Below, one piece after another: positions 21,814 to 35,696 of a stretch of DNA of 50,645 bases (its first letter is position 1; every line of letters starts with the position of its first letter). Made by a program: the position numbers and the translations under genes. The DNA is from Bacteroidota bacterium. Its GTDB lineage: Bacteria; Bacteroidota; Bacteroidia; Chitinophagales; Chitinophagaceae. The stretch lies in NCBI GenBank assembly GCA_030706605.1, contig JAUZOE010000030.1, forward strand, positions 1 through 50,645, read 5' to 3'. Under the pieces are notes generated by a model. That model was not told where the DNA came from, searched no databases, and was given only the letters and a program-made list of their open reading frames with translations.

Positions 21814-21985
21814 ACAGGATGAATAGTTATTGGATTTGATACCTAATAAGCCATAAAGTACTAGTAGTAAACGTAGAAAAATCAGAAATATTGAGTGGCG
21901 GCAGGATATTATTATAGTTAAATAAAATAAGAAATTTAGTAATGTATTTTCCTGAGTAACTAATCTCAAAACCGAAGATTATAGA

Positions 21986-22344
21986 ATGAGTGCATTAATT
22001 CAAAAAAAATGTAATTATAGAATTGTTGCATTTTCTGAAAAACCTTTATCTATAAATTTTTCGGATTATTTGGGCCAAACTTTACAACACGATTATACCT
22101 GTCTCGCCAATCTTTTCCAGAAGTTAAGGGAACCACTATTGAACATTTTACGATTGCTCACAAAATTAAGCGGGAAAAAGAATTGCTGGTTTATAATTAA
22201 GTGACCCTTACGGAAATTGCTTACCAGATGTATTATAGTAGCATCGCACATCTTTCTGCACGATTTAAAAAGGTAACAGAGCTCACCCATACTTATTTCA
22301 AACAAACTAAAATTAAAAGGCTTGCCATGCTTGAAGATGTGTGA
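21986..22344 (+). pseudogene. AraC-family regulator remnant (HTH end)
   Basis: The first 47 codons from 21986 read SINFSDYLGQTLQHDYTCLA-like text. After a one-base shift near 22117 the frame reads F-P-E-V-K-G-T-T-I-E-H-F-T-I-A-H-K-I-K. It then meets an in-frame TAA and continues VTLTEIAYQMYYSSIAHLSA to the stop at 22342-22344. This is the C-terminal HTH pair of an AraC-type protein, in a subgroup I associate with an N-terminal metal-binding (HMA) domain. The upstream domain is missing. The gene therefore carries a truncation, a frameshift and a nonsense codon. Its stop overlaps the first box of a repeated promoter architecture. Confidence 0.78.
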
Positions 22345-22406
22345 ATGATATAACCAATTAATAGAATTATATAACACTTAATCCCTTTAAAGCAATGAAC
22401 TTTGCA
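22339..22406 (+). promoter_or_regulatory. Three-box promoter, copy 1 (before the dead SHOCT copy)
   Basis: Box A GTGTGAATGATATAAC at 22339-22354, box B TATAACA at 22370-22376 and a -7-like TTTGCA at 22401-22406. The offsets from the start of box A are 31 and 62 bases, identical to four other copies. It precedes the degenerate SHOCT gene at 22435. Confidence 0.65.
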
Positions 22407-22434
22407 ATATTAAATTCAAAAACAATGAAATAAA

Positions 22435-22562
22435 ATGTACAATAGTAACTAACGGAGAATGAACCTGATTTGGTAGTCTATTGGGGGAATTTTCATTCGG
22501 GTTATTCTTTCTTCTCTATAATATTCCCGGTCAGCGAAATAAAAAAGATTCACCGCTTGATA
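22435..22562 (+). pseudogene. Degenerate copy of the small SHOCT-like membrane gene
   Basis: The sequence follows the intact gene at 24254-24427 closely, including a shared stretch that encodes the N-I-P-G-Q-R-N-K-K-D-S-P-L region. It hits a stop at codon 6 (ATG TAC AAT AGT AAC TAA) and has lost the 3' end. The similarity extends upstream through the promoter boxes, so a segment of about 220 bp was duplicated with its promoter. From 22563 to 22651 I see nothing else. Confidence 0.8.
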
Positions 22563-22651
22563 ACATAAGGTAGCCGCTAAATCCTGCCATTTGCAATGTG
22601 TCAATATCAATCCTTTGAATTATTCTATTTTTTAATTTTTAAAATATAAAT

Positions 22652-23185
22652 ATGCAAAATCATTGGTATGTAGTATATACAAAGCCTTGCTGTGAAAGAA
22701 AAGTAGCGGTATTACTTAATAAAAAGAGGATTGAAAATTATTTTCCATTGAACTACAAAAGGTCTCAGTCTTTTGTGAGGAAAAGGATAATAGAAGAACC
22801 TTTATTTAAATCCTACTTATTTGTAAAAACAACGGAGATTAATATTATAACCATTACTAAACAGATAAAAAATATTATAAGTCTTCTTCATTGGATAGGG
22901 AAACCTGCAATAATCAATGAAGACGAAATAATTGCAATTAAGGAATTTACCAATAATCACCAGGAAATAAGGTTAGAAAAGGTGCATGTAAATTTAAAAA
23001 TATGTGAAAATATTATGGATGGCATTTCATATATAATGGATGGGAAAATTTTAATGGCAAAACCCAGAGCAATCAAACTGAATTTGCCTTCCCTGGGTTT
23101 TTCTATGACAGCCCGAATGGATGATCAAAATATTATAAGAAAAGGAATAATGCTTAATAAAAAGGAATCCCTCGTACAATCATAG
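22652..23185 (+). CDS. UpxY/NusG-like transcription antiterminator
   Basis: The 177-aa protein has a NusG N-terminal domain (HWYVVYTKPCCERKVAVLL, then a Y-F-P-L-N-Y-K segment and EEPLFKSYLFV) and a C-terminal part of KOW-domain size. In Bacteroidota such paralogues (UpxY type, RfaH-like) ride with RNA polymerase to let long polysaccharide operons be transcribed. It lies just outside the exopolysaccharide operon on the opposite strand, and no capsule operon follows it. It may be an orphan or may act on the nearby synthase genes. The C-terminus is divergent, so KOW function is uncertain. It is followed 23 bases later by a small secreted-protein gene. Confidence 0.85.
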   Translation: MQNHWYVVYTKPCCERKVAVLLNKKRIENYFPLNYKRSQSFVRKRIIEEPLFKSYLFVKTTEINIITITKQIKNIISLLHWIGKPAIINEDEIIAIKEFTNNHQEIRLEKVHVNLKICENIMDGISYIMDGKILMAKPRAIKLNLPSLGFSMTARMDDQNIIRKGIMLNKKESLVQS

Positions 23186-23208
23186 ACTTATTATTTAATT
23201 CGATAATT

Positions 23209-23514
23209 ATGAAATTTATTATTTTTCTTTTGCTCCCAGTTTTTGGAAAATCACAATTACCATCCAATACTCAACAACAAACACTAAAATACGAATGGAG
23301 AAAAATTTCCGGCCCATCACAATACAAGATTGAAACTCCAAATTTAGCACTCACAAATGTCAGCAATTTGGTGGAAGGAATATACCAGTTTGAATTAAAA
23401 GTAACGAACAGGTATGGACTTTCTGCAAGAGATACAATGGTTTTGACAGTCAAACCTCCGGATAATAATGCATCTGTAAAACAAGTCGACAATTCTATAT
23501 TATCCAAGAAATAA
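23209..23514 (+). CDS. Small secreted PKD-like domain protein
   Basis: The 101-aa protein has a short signal peptide (MKFIIFLLLPVFGKSQ) and one Ig/PKD-like fold: YEWRKISGPSQY, then LVEGIYQFELKVTNRYGLSA and DTMVLTVKPP. Such K319/PKD repeats usually occur in tandem in large surface proteins, so a single stand-alone copy is small for the class. It could be a fragment of a larger adhesin, though start and stop look clean. It follows the antiterminator gene and may be co-transcribed with it. Role unknown; surface interaction is a guess. Confidence 0.6.
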   Translation: MKFIIFLLLPVFGKSQLPSNTQQQTLKYEWRKISGPSQYKIETPNLALTNVSNLVEGIYQFELKVTNRYGLSARDTMVLTVKPPDNNASVKQVDNSILSKK

Positions 23515-23689
23515 ACTTTCTGCTGCTGGTGTCCTCTATTTTTTAACTGGGCAATACAATTGGCAACATGATCCTGAAGATAATAATACCCCCGGTATGA
23601 AATACAAAAAATATAGGCAGCCATCCATTTCCGGGGAAACTAACATATTGAATGAAAACCAGCCAGTAGTTCTTAGCAGGGACAGACAT

Positions 23690-23878
23690 CTATAGACCCT
23701 CGATAATTTTGTTAAGCTCTTCGCTGGTTTTTCCAAGTTTTATCTGAAGTTTTCCTAACATTTCATTTTTCTTGCCTTTGTCAAACAACAAATCATTATC
23801 TGTCAGTAAAGCAAATTTCTGTTTTAGCTTTCCTTTCTGTTCGTTCCAGTTTCCTTTTAATTCTGTCTTGTTTTTTAT
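23690..23878 (-). CDS. CsbD-family stress protein, start codon apparently ATA
   Basis: On the minus strand one frame reads I-K-N-K then TELKGNWNEQKGKLKQKFAL and KLGKTSEELNKIIEGL, which is a CsbD-family protein of about 62 aa, the usual size. CsbD proteins are small, abundant general-stress proteins of unknown biochemistry. Where ATG is expected (23878) the sequence is ATA, and no ATG, GTG or TTG in this frame offers a normal N-terminus, so the gene may be silenced or use a rare ATA/ATT start. A three-box promoter sits about 40 bases upstream at the same offsets as in the SHOCT and alcohol dehydrogenase genes. Between 23515 and 23689 I see no other gene. Confidence 0.75.
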   Translation of the reverse strand: MKNKTELKGNWNEQKGKLKQKFALLTDNDLLFDKGKKNEMLGKLQIKLGKTSEELNKIIEGL

Positions 23879-23915
23879 TTTATTTGTTTTAATTATTAGT
23901 GTAAAATTTACTATA

Positions 23916-23981
23916 CAAAGGTGAAGTTTTATTCGCCGGGTAATCTTACTTGATTCAATAAATAGTTTATATCATTCATAC
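23916..23981 (-). promoter_or_regulatory. Three-box promoter, copy 5 (csbD, minus strand)
   Basis: On the minus strand, box A reads GTATGAATGATATAAA starting at 23981. A weaker box B, AGTAAGA, starts 31 bases on, and a -7-like CACCTTTG places its TTTG at 23919-23916, 62 bases on. The conserved offsets on the opposite strand strengthen the case that the architecture is functional. Confidence 0.6.
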
Positions 23982-24156
23982 TTAGGATAAATTATATTCT
24001 TTTATTATTGCAATAAGTATTTGCGCCGTTTTATTGTTCGGTATCTGCGCAATATTTTCAAAGATCTACCCTGTAACCTATGCAAAAGAGGGAGTATTGA
24101 AGTGTAACTCCTATAATTCAATTATGCTTCAAAACCTATCCCACTGCTTAGCAAAA

Positions 24157-24224
24157 GTGTGAATGATGTAAGCAATTTATGGAATTGTATAACACTTAAT
24201 CCCATGAATGCAATGACCTTTGCA
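24157..24224 (+). promoter_or_regulatory. Three-box promoter, copy 2 (SHOCT gene)
   Basis: Box A GTGTGAATGATGTAAG at 24157-24172, box B TATAACA at 24188-24194 and TTTGCA at 24219-24224, again at offsets 31 and 62. The SHOCT start codon follows 35 bases after the TTTG. Confidence 0.7.
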
Positions 24225-24253
24225 GTATTACATTCAAATAAAAATTAAATTAA

Positions 24254-24427
24254 ATGTACAATAGCAATTACTGGGGCATGAACATGATCTGGTGGTTCAT
24301 TTGGGGAATTTTCATATTCTGGATATTCTTTCTTCCCTATAATATTCCCGGTCAGCGAAATAAAAAAGATTCACCGCTTGATATTTTACGAAAACGTTTT
24401 CCTTCGGGATTAATCACCAAAGATTAA
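24254..24427 (+). CDS. Small SHOCT-like membrane protein
   Basis: A 57-aa protein has an aromatic membrane segment (WWFIWGIFIFWIFFLPYNIP) and then GQRNKKDSPLDILRKRFPSG with LITKD at the end. The last part resembles the SHOCT motif (P-L-x-I-L-x-x-R-x-A-x-G-x-I-x), though the usual E-E-Y/F ending is cut short. Proteins of this type are common in Bacteroidota and are often linked to stress or metal response; the function is unknown. A dead duplicate lies at 22435-22562. Transcription is probably from the three-box promoter just upstream. Confidence 0.75.
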   Translation: MYNSNYWGMNMIWWFIWGIFIFWIFFLPYNIPGQRNKKDSPLDILRKRFPSGLITKD

Positions 24428-24596
24428 TATCAGAAAAAGAAAAAAATTCATGAGAATGATTTATCTAAAATAAGCTAATGATTTTCTCCGGATGCCTCCT
24501 TTTTTTACATCACACCAAATGTAGATTGACTATTCCCTTAATTACTATGATTGCTATAAGGTGATATTATAAAACAAAAAAAATCAAATATTTAAA

Positions 24597-25034
24597 ATGA
24601 AAACAATCAAAATAAATAATCGCTCTGCCCGTTTTTTTTCCGTCGGTATTTTGTTATTTATAGCTTTTATGCTCCCATCCTGTGCAAGAAAAATGTCATT
24701 CCAAACTTCAAACGTTGTTCCTGCTGCTGAAGGCAGAGTGAAAGTAAAGAAAAATAAAAATAAAAATTACGATATTGATTTAAGCTTAATACGACTGGTA
24801 GACCCTTCAAGGCTCGATCCCCCAAAAAAGGTTTATGTAGTGTGGATGAACACACAACATAATGGAACCAAAGCGGTAGGACAGTTAAATACTTCCAGCA
24901 GTTTACTTTCAAAAACCATGAAGAGTTCATTAAAAACTTCAGTGCCTTTTCAACCGACCAGTTTTTTTATAACAGCAGAAGATGATGCTGACATGCATAG
25001 ACCTTCAGGCCAGGTAGTGCTAAGAACCAATTAA
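24597..25034 (+). CDS. Hypothetical lipoprotein
   Basis: The 145-aa protein starts with a lipoprotein signal ending MLPSCARK (Cys29). A lysine-rich linker (KVKKNKNKN) follows, then a compact domain with VDPSRLDPPKKVYVVWMNTQ, GQLNTSSSLLSKTMKSSL and SFFITAEDDADMHRPSGQVV. The pattern resembles the small anti-sigma or Ig-like domains of Bacteroidota lipoproteins, but I cannot assign a family. A second small gene follows after 61 bases. It lies within the stress cluster, and no three-box promoter is visible in front of it. Confidence 0.75.
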   Translation: MKTIKINNRSARFFSVGILLFIAFMLPSCARKMSFQTSNVVPAAEGRVKVKKNKNKNYDIDLSLIRLVDPSRLDPPKKVYVVWMNTQHNGTKAVGQLNTSSSLLSKTMKSSLKTSVPFQPTSFFITAEDDADMHRPSGQVVLRTN

Positions 25035-25095
25035 AGAAAGAAATGGCACGGTAATGGGGAAAGGTTGAAAGAACCCCATTTAAAATCCAAATAGA

Positions 25096-25296
25096 ATGAC
25101 CGAAAATAAAAAAGACCAACCCAGTCTGCAAGCCGTTAATAATTCCGGTGGACAATCAACGCGACAAAATGCAAATTCACCAAGTGATAAAACGACCATC
25201 CAGGTGCAGGAAATCGAAGAATGGGATCTTGTAATACCGGATCAAAGACGACCACAATTCCGATCCGACGAAAACTATAGAAGAAGAAATTTCTAA
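25096..25296 (+). CDS. Small hydrophilic hypothetical protein
   Basis: A 66-aa, polar, probably disordered protein (PSLQAVNNSGGQSTRQNANS) with a short ordered-looking patch (IQVQEIEEWDLVIPDQRRP). No family recognised. It lies 61 bases after the lipoprotein gene on the same strand, so the two are probably co-transcribed. Coding status rests on context and plausible composition only. Confidence 0.5.
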   Translation: MTENKKDQPSLQAVNNSGGQSTRQNANSPSDKTTIQVQEIEEWDLVIPDQRRPQFRSDENYRRRNF

Positions 25297-25487
25297 ATGT
25301 GATTGATAATAGGAATTCAATTAATCATGTAATTCCTGCATGAGTAATTCGCAAAAAAAATGAGTCGAATCTACACGCCCGGGAGAACCCGATCGTGGGC
25401 AATATTTTCTACACCATTCATTTTTGGAAAATGTTTACGGTTTATGGAATCGCTTCTTAATTAAATGCTATCTAACAAACACTTATT

Positions 25488-26741
25488 TCAGGATTTTAAC
25501 GAGACAACAGTCTTGTCTTTGCTAACAGCCTTATCAACTAATTTATTTAAGGTAAGCCCCTGAACTATTATAGAAAATATCACTATAAAATAACAACACG
25601 AAAGTATCACCTCCCGGTAGGGAGAAAGAGGAAGTGAAAGTGCCATCGCTATGGATATACCTCCACGCAGACCGGCCCACGTGAGAATAGAAAGATTTAC
25701 CAGGTTCACTTTACGCAATTCAAAAAAAGCAATTAATGATACGCTGATCATTCTCGCAATAAGTATAATCAAAATTGATATCAACCCGATCAGCCAGTAA
25801 TGTCTTAGGAATGGCAATATCAATAGTTGCAGCCCAATCATTACAAAAAGGATGGTATTAAGTATACCATCCAGTAATTGCCATACATTATTTAAAAATT
25901 GATTGGCAGCATGATCTTTCCCAAAACTCTTATTGCCCACCACCAGCCCGGCCACAACAGCCGCTAAAGGTATAGATGCATGAAAAAGATTGGCCACCAC
26001 AGAAATGCCCAACACAATTGCCAGTGAAATTAAAAATATGGTTTGAAAATCTTTTATAGACTTAATAAGCCGGTAAGCAATGAAACCCATTATCAATCCA
26101 ATAAGAACACCACCGATAACCTGTGTTCCGAAAGAACGCAACATTTCTAATACTGAAATTCTGTTTGTTGATTGTTTGGTAATACCCAACGTTGTTACAA
26201 AAAGAATGAGCCCGACAGCATCATTAAACATAGACTCCCCCGATATAACAGTTGCTAACTTTGGAGGAATTCTTGATTTTGTTATAATGGCGCCAACAGC
26301 AATCGGGTCGGTAGGTGAAATAAGAGCACCAAAAACAAAACAATAAATAAGGGGTAATTTTATATGCAAAAGATAAGCCGCTCCAAATATCAATCCACCA
26401 AATACACCTGTAGATACCAGCACGCCCAATGTGCTCAAAATCAATACGGGCCGTCGCAATGCTTTTAGTTTTTGATAGTCGAAATGTAAGGCGCTGGCAA
26501 AAAGCAAAAAACCCAGCATTACGTTCAACAATACTTCAGAAAAATTAATATTATGAGCGAGTTTTGTAAGCAGGTTCAATTTTTCATCCCCAATTCTTCC
26601 TATTATTAAAACAACGATAGAAACTACCACCGACATGGTCATCACCCCTATCGTGCCCGGCAGCTTTACAAACCTTTCGTTCAAATAAGAAAAACCAGCG
26701 GTAATAATTATGAGTAAAGTTATAATGGATAGTATGTCCAA
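25488..26741 (-). CDS. Na+/H+ antiporter, CPA1 (NhaP-type) family
   Basis: The 417-aa inner-membrane protein has about 11-12 helices. The CPA1 core is clear: FGALISPTDPIAVGAI holds the transport Asp region, and SGESMFNDAVGLILF gives the ND motif of electroneutral NhaP/NHE-type exchangers. It exchanges sodium or potassium for protons to control pH and salt. There is no C-terminal regulatory domain. It is the only minus-strand gene of normal size in the stress cluster and is divergent from the alcohol dehydrogenase, sharing a region of roughly 245 bases. Confidence 0.93.
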   Translation of the reverse strand: MDILSIITLLIIITAGFSYLNERFVKLPGTIGVMTMSVVVSIVVLIIGRIGDEKLNLLTKLAHNINFSEVLLNVMLGFLLFASALHFDYQKLKALRRPVLILSTLGVLVSTGVFGGLIFGAAYLLHIKLPLIYCFVFGALISPTDPIAVGAIITKSRIPPKLATVISGESMFNDAVGLILFVTTLGITKQSTNRISVLEMLRSFGTQVIGGVLIGLIMGFIAYRLIKSIKDFQTIFLISLAIVLGISVVANLFHASIPLAAVVAGLVVGNKSFGKDHAANQFLNNVWQLLDGILNTILFVMIGLQLLILPFLRHYWLIGLISILIILIARMISVSLIAFFELRKVNLVNLSILTWAGLRGGISIAMALSLPLSPYREVILSCCYFIVIFSIIVQGLTLNKLVDKAVSKDKTVVSLKS

Positions 26742-26878
26742 AGTAAGTTGTTATGATTAATTTCTTTGTGTACTTGCAAGGTAAACATAAGAAGGTTGTT
26801 GCTATGAAGAATTAATATTCAGATAACTCCATGATTGGAAACGTTGGGACAACTATATATCCAATGTTTTTCTCAAAT

Positions 26879-26946
26879 GTGTGAATAATATAACAAATCT
26901 CCGGAAATGTATAACAGTTAAGAGAATTATTCCAGACAACTTTGCA
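26879..26946 (+). promoter_or_regulatory. Three-box promoter, copy 3 (alcohol dehydrogenase)
   Basis: Box A GTGTGAATAATATAAC at 26879-26894, box B TATAACA at 26910-26916, TTTGCA at 26941-26946; offsets 31 and 62. Box B sits where a Bacteroidota -33 element would be. TGTGA-N6-TAACA inside box A also resembles a Crp/Fnr half-palindrome, centred about 62 bases before the likely transcription start. Confidence 0.7.
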
Positions 26947-26985
26947 TATAAATCTTTTTTACTTCAATTATATAAAATCATCATA

Positions 26986-28113
26986 ATGAACAGCGCAACA
27001 ACTCCAACCAAAACAACCAAGCCAGAATTAGCTTCTGAAGGAACCAAAAATGCAAATGGACTTAGTAAAAAAATGAAAGCCCTGGTATATTATGGCCATG
27101 GCAAAAAATCGTGGGAGGAGAAGCCAACGCCAGTCATTCAAAACAATACCGATGTTATTGTGAAAATAATAAAAACGACCATTTGTGGTACCGACTTGCA
27201 TATACTTAAAGGCGATGTACCTGCAGTAACAGCAGGAAGAATACTTGGGCATGAAGGAGTAGGAATTGTAGAAGAAGCAGGCAGTGCGGTTACTGGCTTC
27301 AAGAAAGGAGATCACGTAATTATTTCCTGCATCACCTCATGCGGTAAATGCGTTTATTGCAAACGAAGTATGTACTCTCATTGTGTAAATGGTGGCTGGA
27401 TACTGGGACATTTGATCGACGGAACACAGGCCGAATATGTGCGGATACCTTATGCAGATAACAGTTTGTACCATATCCCCGAAGGAAGTGATGAGGAAGC
27501 ATTGGTAATGTTGAGCGATATTTTACCAACCGGCTTTGAATGTGGCGTGCTTAATGGTAAAGTGCAACCTGGAAATACTGTCGCAATCGTAGGCTCCGGC
27601 CCTATCGGACTAGCAGCATTATTAACAGCACAATTTTATTCTCCCGCAGAAATTATTATGATTGACCCGGATGATAACAGGCTTAAAACAGCAAAGAAAT
27701 TTGGCGCCACAAAAACTATTAATAACAGCAAAGAAAATGCAATTGAAAGGGTGAAGGAACTAACAGGAGGCATAGGGGTAGATACAGCAATTGAAGCTGT
27801 GGGAATACCGACCACATTTGAGCTATGCCAATCGTTGGTTGCGCCAGGTGGTATAATTGCCAACATAGGCGTGCATGGTAAAAGTGTAGAGCTTCATCTC
27901 GAAACATTATGGTCACGGAATATCGCTATTACCACACGTCTCGTTGATACCGTTACCACATCTATGTTGCTTAAGACAGTTCAATCAAAAAAACTCGATC
28001 CAAAATTATTGATTACACATAGGTTCAAATCAAGCGACATTATAAAGGCATATGATGTTTTTGGGCATGCAGCAAAAGAAAATGCATTAAAAGTTATTTT
28101 AACCAACGATTGA
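26986..28113 (+). CDS. Zinc-dependent alcohol dehydrogenase
   Basis: A medium-chain dehydrogenase of 375 aa from ATG 26986. The frame opens at 26881, but that extension overlaps the promoter boxes. It has catalytic zinc ligands (CGTDLH, GHEGVGIVEEAG), the structural zinc cysteines in SCGKCVYCKRSMYSHC, and the Rossmann loop VGSGPIGLAA followed by MIDPDDNRL (Asp prefers NAD). It probably oxidises or reduces short alcohols or aldehydes during fermentation or redox balancing. The N-terminal 35 residues (NSATTPTKTTKPELASEGTK) are an unusual disordered leader. It begins the long plus-strand run of stress and carbon genes. Confidence 0.92.
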   Translation: MNSATTPTKTTKPELASEGTKNANGLSKKMKALVYYGHGKKSWEEKPTPVIQNNTDVIVKIIKTTICGTDLHILKGDVPAVTAGRILGHEGVGIVEEAGSAVTGFKKGDHVIISCITSCGKCVYCKRSMYSHCVNGGWILGHLIDGTQAEYVRIPYADNSLYHIPEGSDEEALVMLSDILPTGFECGVLNGKVQPGNTVAIVGSGPIGLAALLTAQFYSPAEIIMIDPDDNRLKTAKKFGATKTINNSKENAIERVKELTGGIGVDTAIEAVGIPTTFELCQSLVAPGGIIANIGVHGKSVELHLETLWSRNIAITTRLVDTVTTSMLLKTVQSKKLDPKLLITHRFKSSDIIKAYDVFGHAAKENALKVILTND

Positions 28114-28277
28114 CAGTTTAAGATTAGTAGCAAGAATAGTGGTGAATTAAAATCAGAATTATGAAAATGGAGGGATAAAGCGGCATGGTTGATGTGTGAG
28201 ATCAAATCAGATCACAACAGTATAGCGAAGAGTTATTACCTGATTATAAAATCACCATCAAAATTTAAAATGAAAAA

Positions 28278-29105
28278 ATGAAAACGGAAACAGAAACTCT
28301 CCTGGAAATTGGTATCAATGGCTTGAAAGATAATCAACCGAAATTGGGAATTAAAATTAAAAAAGGAAAGAAAAAAATATTACACAAGCTCTATGTAGAG
28401 TTAGTGAAGTTTCAAAAAGAAGTTATTGATTCTGATCTCAAACTACTCGTAATACTGGAAGGGCGTGACGCAGCTGGGAAAGACGGCACTATAAAAAGGA
28501 TTATTAAACATCTCAGCCCACGCGACACAAAAGTAGTTGCATTGGGTAAGCCATCAGACTTCCAGGAACGTGAATGGTATTTTCAACGTTACACTACTCA
28601 CTTACCCGTTTCAGGCGAATTTGTTCTCTTCAACAGGAGCTGGTACAACCGTCTTGGTGTTGAAAAAGTTATGGGTTTTTGCACGCATAAACAATACAAA
28701 TCATTTTTTACAGAAGTGAAATCATTTGAGAAAGGGCTGATTGATGGAGGTTTCATTATCCTGAAATACTATCTCGATATCAGCAAAAAGATTCAGAAAA
28801 AAAGACTGAAAGCAAGAGAGACAAATCCGCTGAAGCACTGGAAAATAAGCCCCATTGACAAGGAAGCACTAAAGCATTGGAAAGATTATTCAGATGCAAG
28901 GGATGAAATGCTTTTGAAAACAAATTTTGAAAATGCTCCCTGGTTTATCGTAAATGCAAACGATAAAGATAAAACGCATATTGCGCTTATTACGCACCTT
29001 TTACATAGAATGAAATATGCCAGGAAGGATGAAAAATTGCTTTCGCATAATTATGGTTTGGTTGATCCTGCCACACCCGAAATCATAAAGGATAAGCTTT
29101 TCTGA
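28278..29105 (+). CDS. ppk2: Polyphosphate kinase 2
   Basis: PPK2 uses polyphosphate to phosphorylate nucleotides (usually ADP or GDP to the triphosphate). The 275-aa protein has Walker A LEGRDAAGKDGTIKR, the lid and Walker B region EREWYFQRYTTHLP and LFNRSWYNRLGVEKVMGF, and KHWKISPIDKEALKHW, all typical of one-domain class I PPK2. ATG 28278 is close behind another in-frame-free ATG, and the leader is A-rich. The upstream 28114-28277 region has no gene; it contains TGTGA and TCACA separated by 12 bases near 28195-28216, not the three-box pattern. It fits an energy-reserve function in this cluster. Confidence 0.95.
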   Translation: MKTETETLLEIGINGLKDNQPKLGIKIKKGKKKILHKLYVELVKFQKEVIDSDLKLLVILEGRDAAGKDGTIKRIIKHLSPRDTKVVALGKPSDFQEREWYFQRYTTHLPVSGEFVLFNRSWYNRLGVEKVMGFCTHKQYKSFFTEVKSFEKGLIDGGFIILKYYLDISKKIQKKRLKARETNPLKHWKISPIDKEALKHWKDYSDARDEMLLKTNFENAPWFIVNANDKDKTHIALITHLLHRMKYARKDEKLLSHNYGLVDPATPEIIKDKLF

Positions 29106-29353
29106 TAATGGTTGATTAAAACCATTTGACTTCTAGCAATAACTGACCACTATCATTTTTCAGGTGATGATAAGTCCCGAATTTTATAGAAATTTCACCG
29201 GATGCGTTTGACTTAAAATTTAAAAACTATGGTTATGAACAGAGAAATATTTAATAATAATCAATTATACAACCTCTTGACTTCAGATTGCTCAACAAAA
29301 TTCAACTACATTAACAGATATGCCCCTGTTAGTTACAAACAATAAATTAGTCC

Positions 29354-29779
29354 ATGCTTATTAAAGATGAAACCATACTAACCATTAACAGAGGTTCCTC
29401 CAGCATTGAATTTTCTTTATACAAAATAGAAGAGACACTAAAACAAATATTTGACGGGCAGATAGAAAACATTGGATCCTCAAAAGCAAAACTTAGTTTT
29501 AATAATTCTGTTACTGAACAAAAAAATTGTATCAGCATTAAAGCTGCCGATCATAATGCCGCTACTCATCACCTCATTGACTGGCTGGAAAAACAGGAAG
29601 GTTTTGATTCGATCAAAGCTATCGGCCACCGCATCGTTCATGGCGTGAAACATACGGAGTCTGAAATTATCTCTCCTGAATTATTGAAGGAGTTAAAACA
29701 AATCATCACTTACGACCCCGGCCATTTGCCGGAAAAAATAAAATTGACAGAAGTTTTAGCAAGTGGTACACTTCGTTAA
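29354..29779 (+). pseudogene. ackA: Acetate kinase, N-terminal third only
   Basis: AckA makes ATP from acetyl phosphate and is normally about 400 aa. This frame encodes only 141 aa: ILTINRGSSSIEFSLY (the phosphate-binding start, with Arg for the usual Ala/Ser) and IGHRIVHGVKHTESEIIS, then YDPGHLPEKIKLTEVL and a stop. The catalytic core and the second ASKHA domain are missing, and I find no trace of them in 29780-29920, so a deletion is likely. The second glycine of H-G-G is also changed. It is almost certainly inactive. The 248 bases upstream hold no certain gene. Confidence 0.85.
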
Positions 29780-29922
29780 AACAGGTAAGCTGTTTCGATT
29801 GAAGAAGTAATGATAGCAAAATTAACTTGTTCTGTTTTAAAGTACCACGTGAAAAAATAAATGAAAGTGAAACGTGCAGCAGGAATAAGACGAAAAAATT
29901 TAGAACCCAATTATTAACAAAT

Positions 29923-29990
29923 GGGTGAATTATATAAACACCTTCATAAATTTTGTAACAGGCATCTTAATTAAAAACCTTAACTTATAA
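29923..29990 (+). promoter_or_regulatory. Three-box promoter, copy 4 (hpf), divergent
   Basis: Box A GGGTGAATTATATAAA at 29923, box B TGTAACA at 29954-29960 and a degenerate third box TTATAA at 29985-29990. The offsets 31 and 62 are kept although the sequence has drifted. The hpf start codon is 55 bases after the third box. Confidence 0.55.
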
Positions 29991-30039
29991 CAAAACAAAG
30001 ATTTCATTATAATAAAATAAATATTTAAAAATTAGCATT

Positions 30040-30354
30040 ATGACTATTCAAATTAACACAGATAAAAACTTAAGTGTACACAAAACATTCAAAGCTGAAT
30101 TAGATAGTTTGCTTTCAGAAGAATTAAGCAGGTTCAGCGAACACATCACCAGGTTGGAAGTCCATCTATCAGACGAAAATGGAAACAAACAGGGGCTAAA
30201 CGATAAACAATGCATCATTGAAGCCCGCCTTGAAGGAAGGCAGCCAATTGCAGTAACAGATAAAGCAAATGACTATGAGCTTGCAGTAAGTGGTGCAATT
30301 AAAAAATTGAAAACTTCGTTGGATACAATTGTGGGAAAATTAAAACATCATTAA
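30040..30354 (+). CDS. hpf: Ribosome hibernation-promoting factor (HPF/RaiA family)
   Basis: The 104-aa protein has the short HPF/YfiA fold: a strand-helix start (MTIQINTDKNLSVHKTFKAE), LSRFSEHITRLEVHLSDENG, then CIIEARLEGRQPIAVTDKAN and an amphipathic C-terminal helix (AVSGAIKKLKTSLDTIVGKL). Such factors bind the 30S decoding site and silence ribosomes in stationary phase. It lacks the C-terminal dimerisation domain of long HPF. It is transcribed from a three-box promoter, consistent with the dormancy theme. The 219 bases after it contain only an unassigned short frame at 30427. Confidence 0.9.
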   Translation: MTIQINTDKNLSVHKTFKAELDSLLSEELSRFSEHITRLEVHLSDENGNKQGLNDKQCIIEARLEGRQPIAVTDKANDYELAVSGAIKKLKTSLDTIVGKLKHH

Positions 30355-30573
30355 AATGACGAACAATAACAACAGGATGGTATCTCCACATTTTAAAGTA
30401 ATTAATTAAAATATCTATCACTATTATGGAAACTGAAATTATGCAGCTCAAAGTAAAGGGAACTTTATCCCTTAATTATTGCAAAAGATGAATATTTACA
30501 TGCGCAAGATGGGATAGATACCCCTGAGATAAGAGATTGAAAACAGAATTTAACAACATAAAAAATAAAAATA

Positions 30574-32930: not shown

Positions 32931-33967
32931 ATGAATAAAAAAATATTAAAGGATACGGTCACCCGCTTATTTGCAGATAGTAAAGGTTTGCTGGCAATGG
33001 ATGAAAGCACCCCTACCTGCAATAAACGATTTGCCAAATTGGGCATTCCACAAACGGAAGAAGCCCGCCGTGACTGGCGGGAATTACTGGTAACCCCACC
33101 TGATTTAAGTGAGTGCATCAGCAGCACCATATTATATGATGAGACCATTCGCCAAAATGAAAGAGATGGAACGCCCATTATTAAAGCGATCATAAATGAA
33201 GGAATTGTTGTGGGAATCAAAGTAGATAAAGGCGCCAAATTAATGGCGGGTCATCCGGGCGAAAAATTTACTGAAGGTTTGGATGGATTGCGTGAGCGCC
33301 TGAAAGAATATTTCCAGATGGGTGCCAGGTTTGCTAAGTGGCGAGCGGTAATTGCTATTGGGGATGGCATTCCCAGTCTTGCCTGTATAGAAGCGAATGC
33401 AAATATATTGGCACTTTACGCAAGCCTCTGCCAGGAAGCAGGATTGGTGCCGATTGTGGAGCCTGAGGTTCTCATGGAAGGCACGCATGATTTACAGGTA
33501 TGCTTACCATCACAGAACAAGTATTGAGAACAGTTTTCAACCATATTTATGCACAGGGGGTGATGCTGGAAGGCGCTATTTTGAAACCCAATATGGTAAT
33601 TCCTGGATTAATTTGCCCGAAGCAGGTTAGTGTTGAAGAAGTTGCAGATGCTACTATACAATGCCTCCGTCAGTCAGTTCCTGCTGCCATTGGCGGAATT
33701 GCATTTTTATCAGGAGGACGATCCGGCAAACTTGCTTCAGCTCATTTAAATGCCATGCATGTGAGGCATGAATTGAAACTTCCATGGCCATTGACATTTT
33801 CTTTTGCAAGAGCCATTCAGCAACCTGCTATGGAGATTTGGGATGGGAAAGACAAAAACATAAAAGCAGCGCAGCAGGCTTTATTTCATCGGGCCAGATG
33901 CGACCAGAAAGCACGGATGGGCCTATACAATGCCTCAATGGAAATGGTTGAAGCAATGGCGATTTAA
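32931..33967 (+). pseudogene. Class I fructose-bisphosphate aldolase, frameshifted
   Basis: Class I aldolase splits fructose-1,6-bisphosphate using a Schiff-base lysine. Two frames make the full protein of about 345 aa: the first has GLLAMDESTPTCNKRF, GIKVDKGAKLM and VPIVEPEVLMEGTHDLQ. The second has TITEQVLRTVF, the catalytic Lys in GAILKPNMVIPG, and FLSGGRSGKLASAHLNAM. The shift occurs at 33498-33502: after CAG the present GTATGC should read with one more base before it (Q-R-M-L-T-I-T). A one-base deletion with no slippery homopolymer makes mutation or assembly error most likely. All catalytic residues are present on one side or the other. Confidence 0.85.
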
Positions 33968-34059: not shown

Positions 34060-35696
34060 ATGCAAGTATCAATTTTAGCAGGAAAACCCGCAGAACAAAA
34101 TATACTTATAAATATTCCGCGCCTTGTTACCGCCTATTACACAGGAAAACCTGATCCATCAGTTAACGCTGAGAAGGTTTCGTTTGGAACCTCCGGTCAT
34201 CGAGGTTCTTCGTTTAAGAACTCTTTCAACGAAAATCATATTCTTGCCATTACACAAGCCATTTGTCTCTATCGCAAAGAAAAAAAAAAGATGGTCCTTT
34301 ATACCTTGGTTTTGATACACATGCCTTGTCAGCGCCTTCTTATGCTACCACTATGGAAGTATTGGCGGCGAATAATGTTGACGTGATGATTGCGAACGAA
34401 GATGAATATACGCCTACACCTGTAATTTCACATGCTATTTTAAAATACAACAAAGAGAGAAAAACAGGATTAGCAGATGGCATTGTTATCACACCATCTC
34501 ACAATCCTCCGGATGATGGTGGCTTTAAATACAATCCACCTAACGGAGGGCCTGCGGGGAATGATGTTACCAACTGGATTGAAAAGAAAGCCAATGAATT
34601 ACTGAAGAACAATCTTCAGGGTTTAAAAAGAATTTCGTTCGATAAAGCTATTAAAGCATCAACCACACACCGTTATGATTTCCTGAATAACTATGTAAAT
34701 GATCTTGGGAATATCATTGACATGGATGTCATTCGTAATGCAAAAATAAAGATGGGCGTTGATCCGATGGGCGGCGCGGGTGTTCATTACTGGGAACCCA
34801 TAGCCGAAAAGTATAAATTGAATTTAACGGTTACCAATAAAATTGTTGATCCCACTTTTAGTTTCATGACGGTTGATTGGGACGGGCAAATCCGTATGGA
34901 TCCTTCTTCTACTTATGCCATGCAGCGTCTGATAGCTATGAAAGATAATTTTGATATTTCGTTTGCCTGCGACACCGATCATGACCGGCATGGTATTGTA
35001 ACAAAAAGTGCAGGCTTGTTAAATCCCAATCATTATTTATCGGTAGCTATTTCTTACCTGCTTCAAAATCGCCCGCAATGGGCAAAAACATCAGCAGTTG
35101 GCAAGACGGTTGTTACTACGCAACTCATTGACCGCATAGCAGCGAAACTCAATAGGAAAATATATGATGTTCCTGTCGGATTCAAATGGTTTGTTGATGG
35201 CTTATTGGATGGCTCACTTTGTTTTGGTGGTGAGGAAAGTGCAGGCGCTTCTTTTTCGAGATTGGATGGAAGTGTTTGGACTACAGATAAAGATGGATTT
35301 ATCCCGGCATTACTATCTGCAGAGATCACTGCAAAAATGGGAATAGATCCCGGTAAAATATATACTACTCTTACCAGTGAATATGGTGTACCTTTCTATG
35401 ATCGCATTGAAGCTAAAGCAACGCCCGAACAAAAAGAAAAATTGAAAAACCTTTCTTCCTCAGAAATAAAACACAAGGAACTTGCCGGGGAAAATATTGA
35501 TAACATACTTATAAAAGCACCCGGAAATTATGCTGCAATAGGTGGCGTGAAAGTTGTGACAAAAAATGGGTGGTTTGCAGCACGGCCATCAGGAACAGAA
35601 GACATCTATAAAATCTATGCTGAAAGTTTTTTAAGTAAAGATCATTTGAAAACAATAATTGATGAAGCGCAAACTATTGTGAATGCTGCATTATAG
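34060..35696 (+). CDS. pgm: Phosphoglucomutase, split at an A10 slippery tract
   Basis: Pgm interconverts glucose-6- and glucose-1-phosphate. The first frame (34060-34386) carries VSFGTSGHRGSSFK; the second supplies the rest: phosphoserine loop GIVITPSHNPPDDGG, metal loop CDTDHDRHGIV, sugar loop GGEESAGAS and phosphate loop RPSGTEDIYKIYAES. They join at GAA AAA AAA AAG ATG (34279-34293 region), where a -1 shift on A-AAA-AAG gives D-G-P-L-Y-L-G-F-D-T-H, exactly the family sequence. So full-length protein of about 545 aa could arise by ribosomal or transcriptional slippage. A sequencing error in the A10 run is the alternative. It lies directly before the glucan synthase. Confidence 0.85.

Follow-up and report, generated by a model that had tools for sequence, protein, structure and literature searches.

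A 50,645-nucleotide stretch of a Chitinophagaceae genome (Bacteroidota bacterium, assembly GCA_030706605.1, contig JAUZOE010000030.1; this whole stretch is called the window below) carries five copies of a promoter-like element in which two upstream boxes (box A and box B) and a -7 element stand at set distances from one another. Each copy is probably (about 75% by our estimate, from sequence evidence) an activator-dependent promoter that is bound by an AraC/XylS-family protein and controls a survival-type regulon. Mechanistically, two monomers of a 192-residue AraC/XylS-family protein would bind two direct-repeat half-sites 21 bp apart and bring primary-sigma RNA polymerase to a -7 element in which the first T of TAnnTTTG is usually absent. 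This regulon would consist of scattered small genes (csbD, ytxH, dps-like, DUF5670, cupin, ice-binding-like, and envelope-protein genes, with hpf and an alcohol dehydrogenase gene in the window) and, in many species, would include the regulator gene itself. Direct binding, activation rather than repression, and stress or stationary state as the signal are the parts of this scheme that we infer.

Architecture and distribution of the two-box motif

For the most part, the motif consists of AATNNTRTAAC in direct repeat at 21 bp; the proximal copy lies over the -33 region and is followed by a sigma-A-type -7 element (consensus from 50 sites, GTGTGAATnATGTAACTTATTTnnAAAGTTATGTAACACTTTnnnnnnTnAAnnnnCnCAnCTTTG). 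Self-similarity of the site peaks at a 21-bp shift (0.61, compared with 0.41 at 30 and 0.30 at 9), and AATNNTRTAAC is therefore repeated head to tail, two turns apart. The spacing is rigid across 80 named Bacteroidota loci (the best 80 of 577 confirmed stretches), which hold 197 strong box-A matches with box B above the cut-off in 106 and below it in 91; 104 of the 106 A-B pairs are spaced exactly as in the window, and the other two deviate by a single base, one in each direction. Of the -7 elements of those 106, 72 stand at the window spacing, 17 are one base closer, and 17 fall below the cut-off. A first-pass annotation of the window had proposed two sites two helical turns apart, with box B over the -33 region, and both proposals are borne out.

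Conservation extends to columns outside the pattern first used, with an A three bases before TTTG (column 59) in 36/36 sites and a C directly before TTTG in 30/36 (these counts cover 36 of 37 sites, one near-copy in genome G012 being left out). Passages of PMC9723704 place a sigma-A element, TAnnTTTG, at -12 to -5 in Flavobacterium psychrophilum, and on that description the conserved A is the A of this element, the leading T of which is mostly replaced here (T in 17% and C in 53% of 198 sites). With the -7 element placed at -12 to -5, the two half-sites come to lie at about -70 to -55 and -49 to -33. From TTTG, the start codon chosen for the downstream gene is a median of 37 nt away (194/198 sites). 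The position of box B at the -33 region would also suit promoters of an alternative (extracytoplasmic function) sigma factor, with TRTAACA as the -35 element, but the -7 element belongs to the primary type (AnnTTTR, at the position described in those passages) and box A, 21 bp further upstream, would be left unexplained; we regard such promoters as very improbable.

In the window, all five copies were located exactly where the first-pass annotation had put them (Table 1). At the offsets that it gave for the second and third boxes, copies 1, 2, and 3 have TATAACA (+31) and TTTGCA (+62) after box A, but one box is degraded in each of copies 4 and 5. Copy 4 (box A, GGGTGAATTATATAAA) has TGTAACA at +31 and TTATAA in place of TTTGCA at +62, and copy 5 (box A, GTATGAATGATATAAA) has AGTAAGA (4/7) at +31 and TTTGTA at +62 and is marginal genome-wide (E = 0.038, model R1, own genome). 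Box A alone, at up to three mismatches, occurs seven times in the window, whereas 100 shuffled sequences averaged 2.82 and none of them reached seven. Copies 1 and 2 represent a single duplication, as first annotated (86% identity over 227 bp), and one could thus see in the copies what is left of a repeat, duplicated or mobile, or else a structured RNA leader. Outside the window, however, conservation is limited to the boxes, with variable bases in between, while for an RNA leader there is no Rfam match in 21900-30400 and the inferred start lies downstream of the boxes; such an origin is extremely improbable.

Since the strict two-box pattern recovered no copies but 1 and 3 in the window's own genome, looser patterns and profiles were used. 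Searched at up to three mismatches in 99 relatives, box A, 15 bases, box B, 24 bases, and TTTG matched at 37 positions in 14 of them, and the same pattern read backwards matched nowhere. Allowing R at the A/G positions and ANCTTTR as the -7 element, we found 362 sites in 90 of 294 same-family genomes, again with no site in those genomes for the pattern read backwards; the spaced motif thus recurs in the scan of genome and relatives that had been proposed with the first annotation. A 34-site matrix (built with copies 1 and 3 of the window but without copy 2 and the counterpart of the latter in genome G008) yielded 198 sites of at least 20 bits in 71 of the 80 named loci (1.37 Mb), at least one of which (L137) repeats a training site from G008; the reversed sequences of the 80 loci held no site of at least 20 bits, with a top score of 9.2. 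Finally, model R1, which comprises the 50 best of the 114 distinct sites scoring at least 38 among the 198 (none from loci of the own genome), finds 13 sites at E <= 2e-4 in the own genome (4.27 Mb), namely four in the window, five at 86-91 kb of contig C4, two on C12, and one each on C36 and C1. The C4 sites lie among small genes that include CsbD-like (weak Pfam match) and DUF5670 genes and adjoin an AraC-gene operon, and on C12 the sites lie upstream of one receiver gene and one CsbD-like gene (by eye). A type III polyketide synthase (chalcone synthase-like) gene follows the site on C36 (L220, C36:10481). These recurring sites before scattered genes bear out the multi-gene regulon that had been suggested from the window.

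An AraC-family protein as the candidate regulator

The best candidate for reading the motif, on sequence grounds, is a 192-aa AraC-family protein encoded in that C4 operon of the own genome, at C4:94268-94843, which matches PF12833 (HTH_18; 57.4 bits, cut-off 33.6) and PF00165 (HTH_AraC; 29.3 bits, cut-off 26.6). An AlphaFold model of a Flavobacterium member (predicted local distance difference test score 86.5, predicted template modelling score 0.67) has a beta-alpha-beta-beta-alpha-beta first domain followed by an AraC DNA-binding domain, and Foldseek matches of the DNA-binding part are 6swi, 3mkl, 3w6v, and 1bl0 (E 4.6e-5 to 7.5e-4). Tandem half-sites about 21 bp apart by the -35 region are a mark of the AraC/XylS family, and both such half-sites and a double helix-turn-helix domain are found here.

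Two described systems resemble this arrangement. The AraC/XylS activator MtlR, according to passages of PMC4514859, also uses two direct-repeat blocks just upstream of the core promoter, in its case at -72 to -58 and -50 to -36, but it serves a mannitol response at one operon, whereas the targets here are many and scattered and the N-terminal domain is different. The hybrid two-component systems of Bacteroides polysaccharide loci share an AraC-type DNA-binding domain, and the passages of PMC3878776 that treat their predicted sites describe direct repeats spaced 21 bp apart on average; those proteins, however, join a periplasmic sensor, a kinase, and a receiver to the AraC domain within a single chain and serve glycan use, whereas the candidate here has 192 residues with HTH_18 and HTH_AraC only, and survival-type targets.

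Across the 294 family genomes, the presence of the motif follows the similarity of the best regulator homolog. The motif was present in 14/14 genomes at E <= 1e-90, 23/24 between 1e-90 and 1e-80, and 20/22 up to 1e-75, compared with 4/14 up to 1e-70, 7/47 up to 1e-60, 9/59 up to 1e-50, 1/22 up to 1e-45, and 12/92 with no homolog. The association also holds within genera, with both motif and regulator in 49 genomes versus 28.5 expected and none of 100,000 shuffles as high (27 informative genera; table 49/2/18/75). In addition, sites stand beside regulator genes: in 44 of the 80 named loci the gene for the regulator itself has a site upstream, and a further set of 134 regulator loci gave 80 with a site above the cut-off, 35 of these at the regulator 3' end and 10 before the gene, at a cut-off that passes about one locus per hundred by chance (one reversed locus reached 16.5). 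An alignment of regulators from the named loci (A4) covers 36 of the 80.

The first-pass annotation had likened part of box A to a Crp/Fnr site and inferred a stress or low-oxygen regulon, which would make the copies Crp/Fnr-type sites of a low-oxygen or starvation regulon. Crp/Fnr sites are inverted repeats, TGTGA-N6-TCACA or TTGAT-N4-ATCAA. Box A (consensus GTGTGAATNATGTAACT) does begin with TGTGA, but it has no matching TCACA or TAACA half (column 16 is A in 16% of 198 sites), the repeat is direct rather than palindromic, and the motif tracks an AraC-family protein, so that the assignment falls and this type of control is scarcely plausible.

At several loci, an AraC-family gene forms an operon with a hybrid histidine kinase and a lone receiver (L043:12892-16919, which is about 90.9-94.9 kb of C4; also L045 and L046). 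The operon receiver was considered as the common factor and rejected because it is present, at 1e-40, in only 20/294 genomes (18 with the motif), and 72 of the 90 motif genomes are without it; kinase and receiver may together feed into the regulator as an optional input.

Several observations weigh against control by the AraC-family protein. There is no regulator homolog at 1e-45 in 12 of the 90 motif genomes; a profile search of these 12 recovered the gene in two, split in G228 and divergent in G209, and in the remaining ten it returned nothing at 1e-12 for seven and other AraC domains near 1e-13 for three. Therefore, either the gene is missing from these ten assemblies or another protein serves there. 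Conversely, 13 genomes with a regulator at <= 1e-70, including G252 (4.3e-90), have no site within three mismatches, and no site was detected for the intact regulator gene of the own genome. A short palindrome is also present in box B (0.54 at column 31.5), and the commonest domain among downstream proteins is ice-binding-like (27/143), not a classical general-stress protein. The ten regulator-less genomes hold 23 sites, some of which precede, by eye, csbD-like (L008), Ig-like (L009, L109), ice-binding-like (L250), and receiver (L247) genes and the rest other or unclear open reading frames (ORFs), as might be expected if a different DNA-binding protein read the motif and the AraC gene were a conserved regulon member travelling along. 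The graded dependence on regulator similarity, the within-genus test, the rarity of the operon receiver, and a 21-bp direct repeat like those in the cited passages on other AraC-type systems all count against a different reader, and we consider one unlikely.

Target genes and the copies in the window

The downstream gene of each site was taken as the best-scoring ORF by a simple rule, not as an annotated gene. The 143 downstream proteins scanned (of 148 non-regulator ones, five longer than 700 aa being left out) included CsbD (12), OmpA (8), receiver (6), YtxH (3), cupin (3), BON (2), and YceI (2) domains besides the ice-binding-like ones; Dps-like and universal-stress-like targets were identified by eye, and hpf was seen as a target in this window only. 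Runs of secreted or lipoprotein-like genes, several of them ice-binding-like and each with its own two-box site, were seen at L140:3362-7931, L152:12481-18840, and L208:1277-6570.

Where the first-pass annotation had suggested a stress or low-oxygen regulon, stress-type targets support the first half (in the window csbD and hpf, at other loci YtxH, cupin, Dps-like, and universal-stress-like proteins), but low oxygen is unsupported, as no pointer to it turned up, in an analysis that made no search aimed at oxygen. Judging from these target families, the role of the regulon is likely stress or dormancy. Passages of PMC7824861 name csbD, dps, ytxH, and hpf/yvyD as targets of SigB, which governs the general stress regulon of Bacillus subtilis, and the same families are targets here. 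Unlike the alternative-sigma promoters of SigB or RpoS, however, the sites here combine a -7 element of the primary type with an activator site, and no alternative sigma factor is implied.

Table 1 Motif copies and associated genes in the window. E values are those of the sequence-only model R1 against the whole own genome
Feature	Coordinates	Strand	Details	E value
Copy 1	22339..22404	+	box A 22339-22354, box B 22370-22376, -7 element GAACTTTG 22397-22404	7.7e-11
Copy 2	24157..24222	+	box A 24157-24172, box B 24188-24194, -7 element GACCTTTG 24215-24222	1.2e-10
Copy 3	26879..26944	+	box A 26879-26894, box B 26910-26916, -7 element CAACTTTG 26937-26944	2.7e-8
Copy 4	29923..29988	+	box A (two mismatches) 29923-29938, box B 29954-29960, degraded -7 element TAACTTAT 29981-29988	1.9e-4
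Copy 5	23916..23981	-	box A (two mismatches) 23981-23966, poor box B 23950-23944, -7 element CACCTTTG 23923-23916	0.038
Decayed AraC-family regulator gene	22108..22341	+	residues 108-185 matched, 55% identity, one in-frame stop	
Dead SHOCT-like duplicate behind copy 1	22435..22562 (end approximate)	+	several in-frame stops	
csbD-like frame behind copy 5	23690..23878	-	PF05532, 43.5 bits (cut-off 40)	
SHOCT-like ORF behind copy 2	24254..24427	+	57 codons	
Zinc-binding alcohol dehydrogenase behind copy 3	26986..28113	+	375 aa; PF08240, PF00107	
hpf / S30AE ribosome-hibernation factor behind copy 4	30040..30354	+	104 aa; PF02482, 32.6 bits (cut-off 23.7)	

The decayed AraC-family gene terminates on box A of copy 1, and the two together are a fossil of the regulator-with-site arrangement seen at other loci. 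Behind copy 2, the ORF of the SHOCT gene that the first annotation had called live is present, but it stops after 57 codons compared with 74 in the relative from G008, whose own SHOCT match is sub-threshold (22.4 bits, cut-off 27). Behind copy 5, a csbD-like frame is likewise present, but ATA occupies the expected start codon (23878-23876), with no ATG, GTG, or TTG there. Elsewhere in the window, a 141-aa ORF at 29354-29779 resembles what we take to be a shortened acetate kinase, and overlapping ORF pairs at 32931-33967 and 34060-35696, each in two frames as if frameshifted, resemble an aldolase and a phosphoglucomutase.

Copper-linked relatives and a proposed stress activator

The first domain of the modelled regulator weakly resembles the copper chaperones Atx1 (E 0.37) and HAH1 (E 0.41), and a Pfam match to HMA was absent from the two regulator members scanned. 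The own-genome regulator has MVSLRC (SxxC) at the position where 71 of 173 homologs have CxxC, and 21 of the 38 CxxC homologs below 60% identity were flagged with HMA or copper-ATPase genes nearby. In a tree of 143 of the 173 proteins, a 38-row clade (support 100/99), all with CxxC, contains all 21 copper-flagged rows, and the other 105 rows have none. The flags were assigned by short protein patterns, which missed L079 (next to an E1-E2 ATPase by Pfam); one further flag, at 83% identity (L178, a 20-kb locus), was left out of the tree.

These copper-linked homologs share the domain layout of the own-genome regulator, are about 53-58% identical to it, and have two-box sites at the regulator 3' end, but they keep CxxC and their box A is usually TGTAAAT. 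At L079, L080, L081, L298, L307, L321, L332, L333, and others, a CxxC member is directly upstream of an HMA or copper P-type ATPase gene, with a two-box site between them. Given a CxxC clade with copper genes and shared sites, the copper-linked and stress-linked branches therefore share a two-box promoter. Base 4 of box A differs with the regulator: it is G in 60/64 and A in 4/64 sites of regulators with T and H at helix-turn-helix positions 104 and 155, and A in 10/10 sites (TGTAAAT in seven) of those with N and Y. We make no claim of residue-to-base co-evolution from this, because the split follows the tree and many sites overlap the regulator stop codon, which can be either TGA or TAA. A metal-responsive branch of the family is suggested by the predicted first domain together with the copper-linked sister clade; which of the two branches descends from the other would depend on a tree root that is not fixed.

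Bacteroidota are not known to have RpoS or SigB. We tentatively propose, with rather less confidence than doubt, that in many Bacteroidota a general stress or dormancy response may depend on a short activator of the AraC type instead of an alternative sigma factor, that this activator would be sister to or descended from copper-linked, HMA-like AraC regulators, and that its main stress lineage would have lost one cysteine of CxxC and kept the logic of tandem sites 21 bp apart. Literature searches of open-licence PMC articles found no paper on the motif or the regulator. Overall, our analyses point to an AraC-type regulon that is widespread in Bacteroidota and so far unnamed, and they yield a concrete candidate regulator, a model for scoring its putative sites, and target families listed for cultured, named species, of which several are Flavobacterium; the named loci include those of F. 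degerlachei DSM 15718 and F. granuli DSM 19729. They also offer a case in which one regulator family would be split into copper-linked and stress-linked branches with a common promoter grammar.

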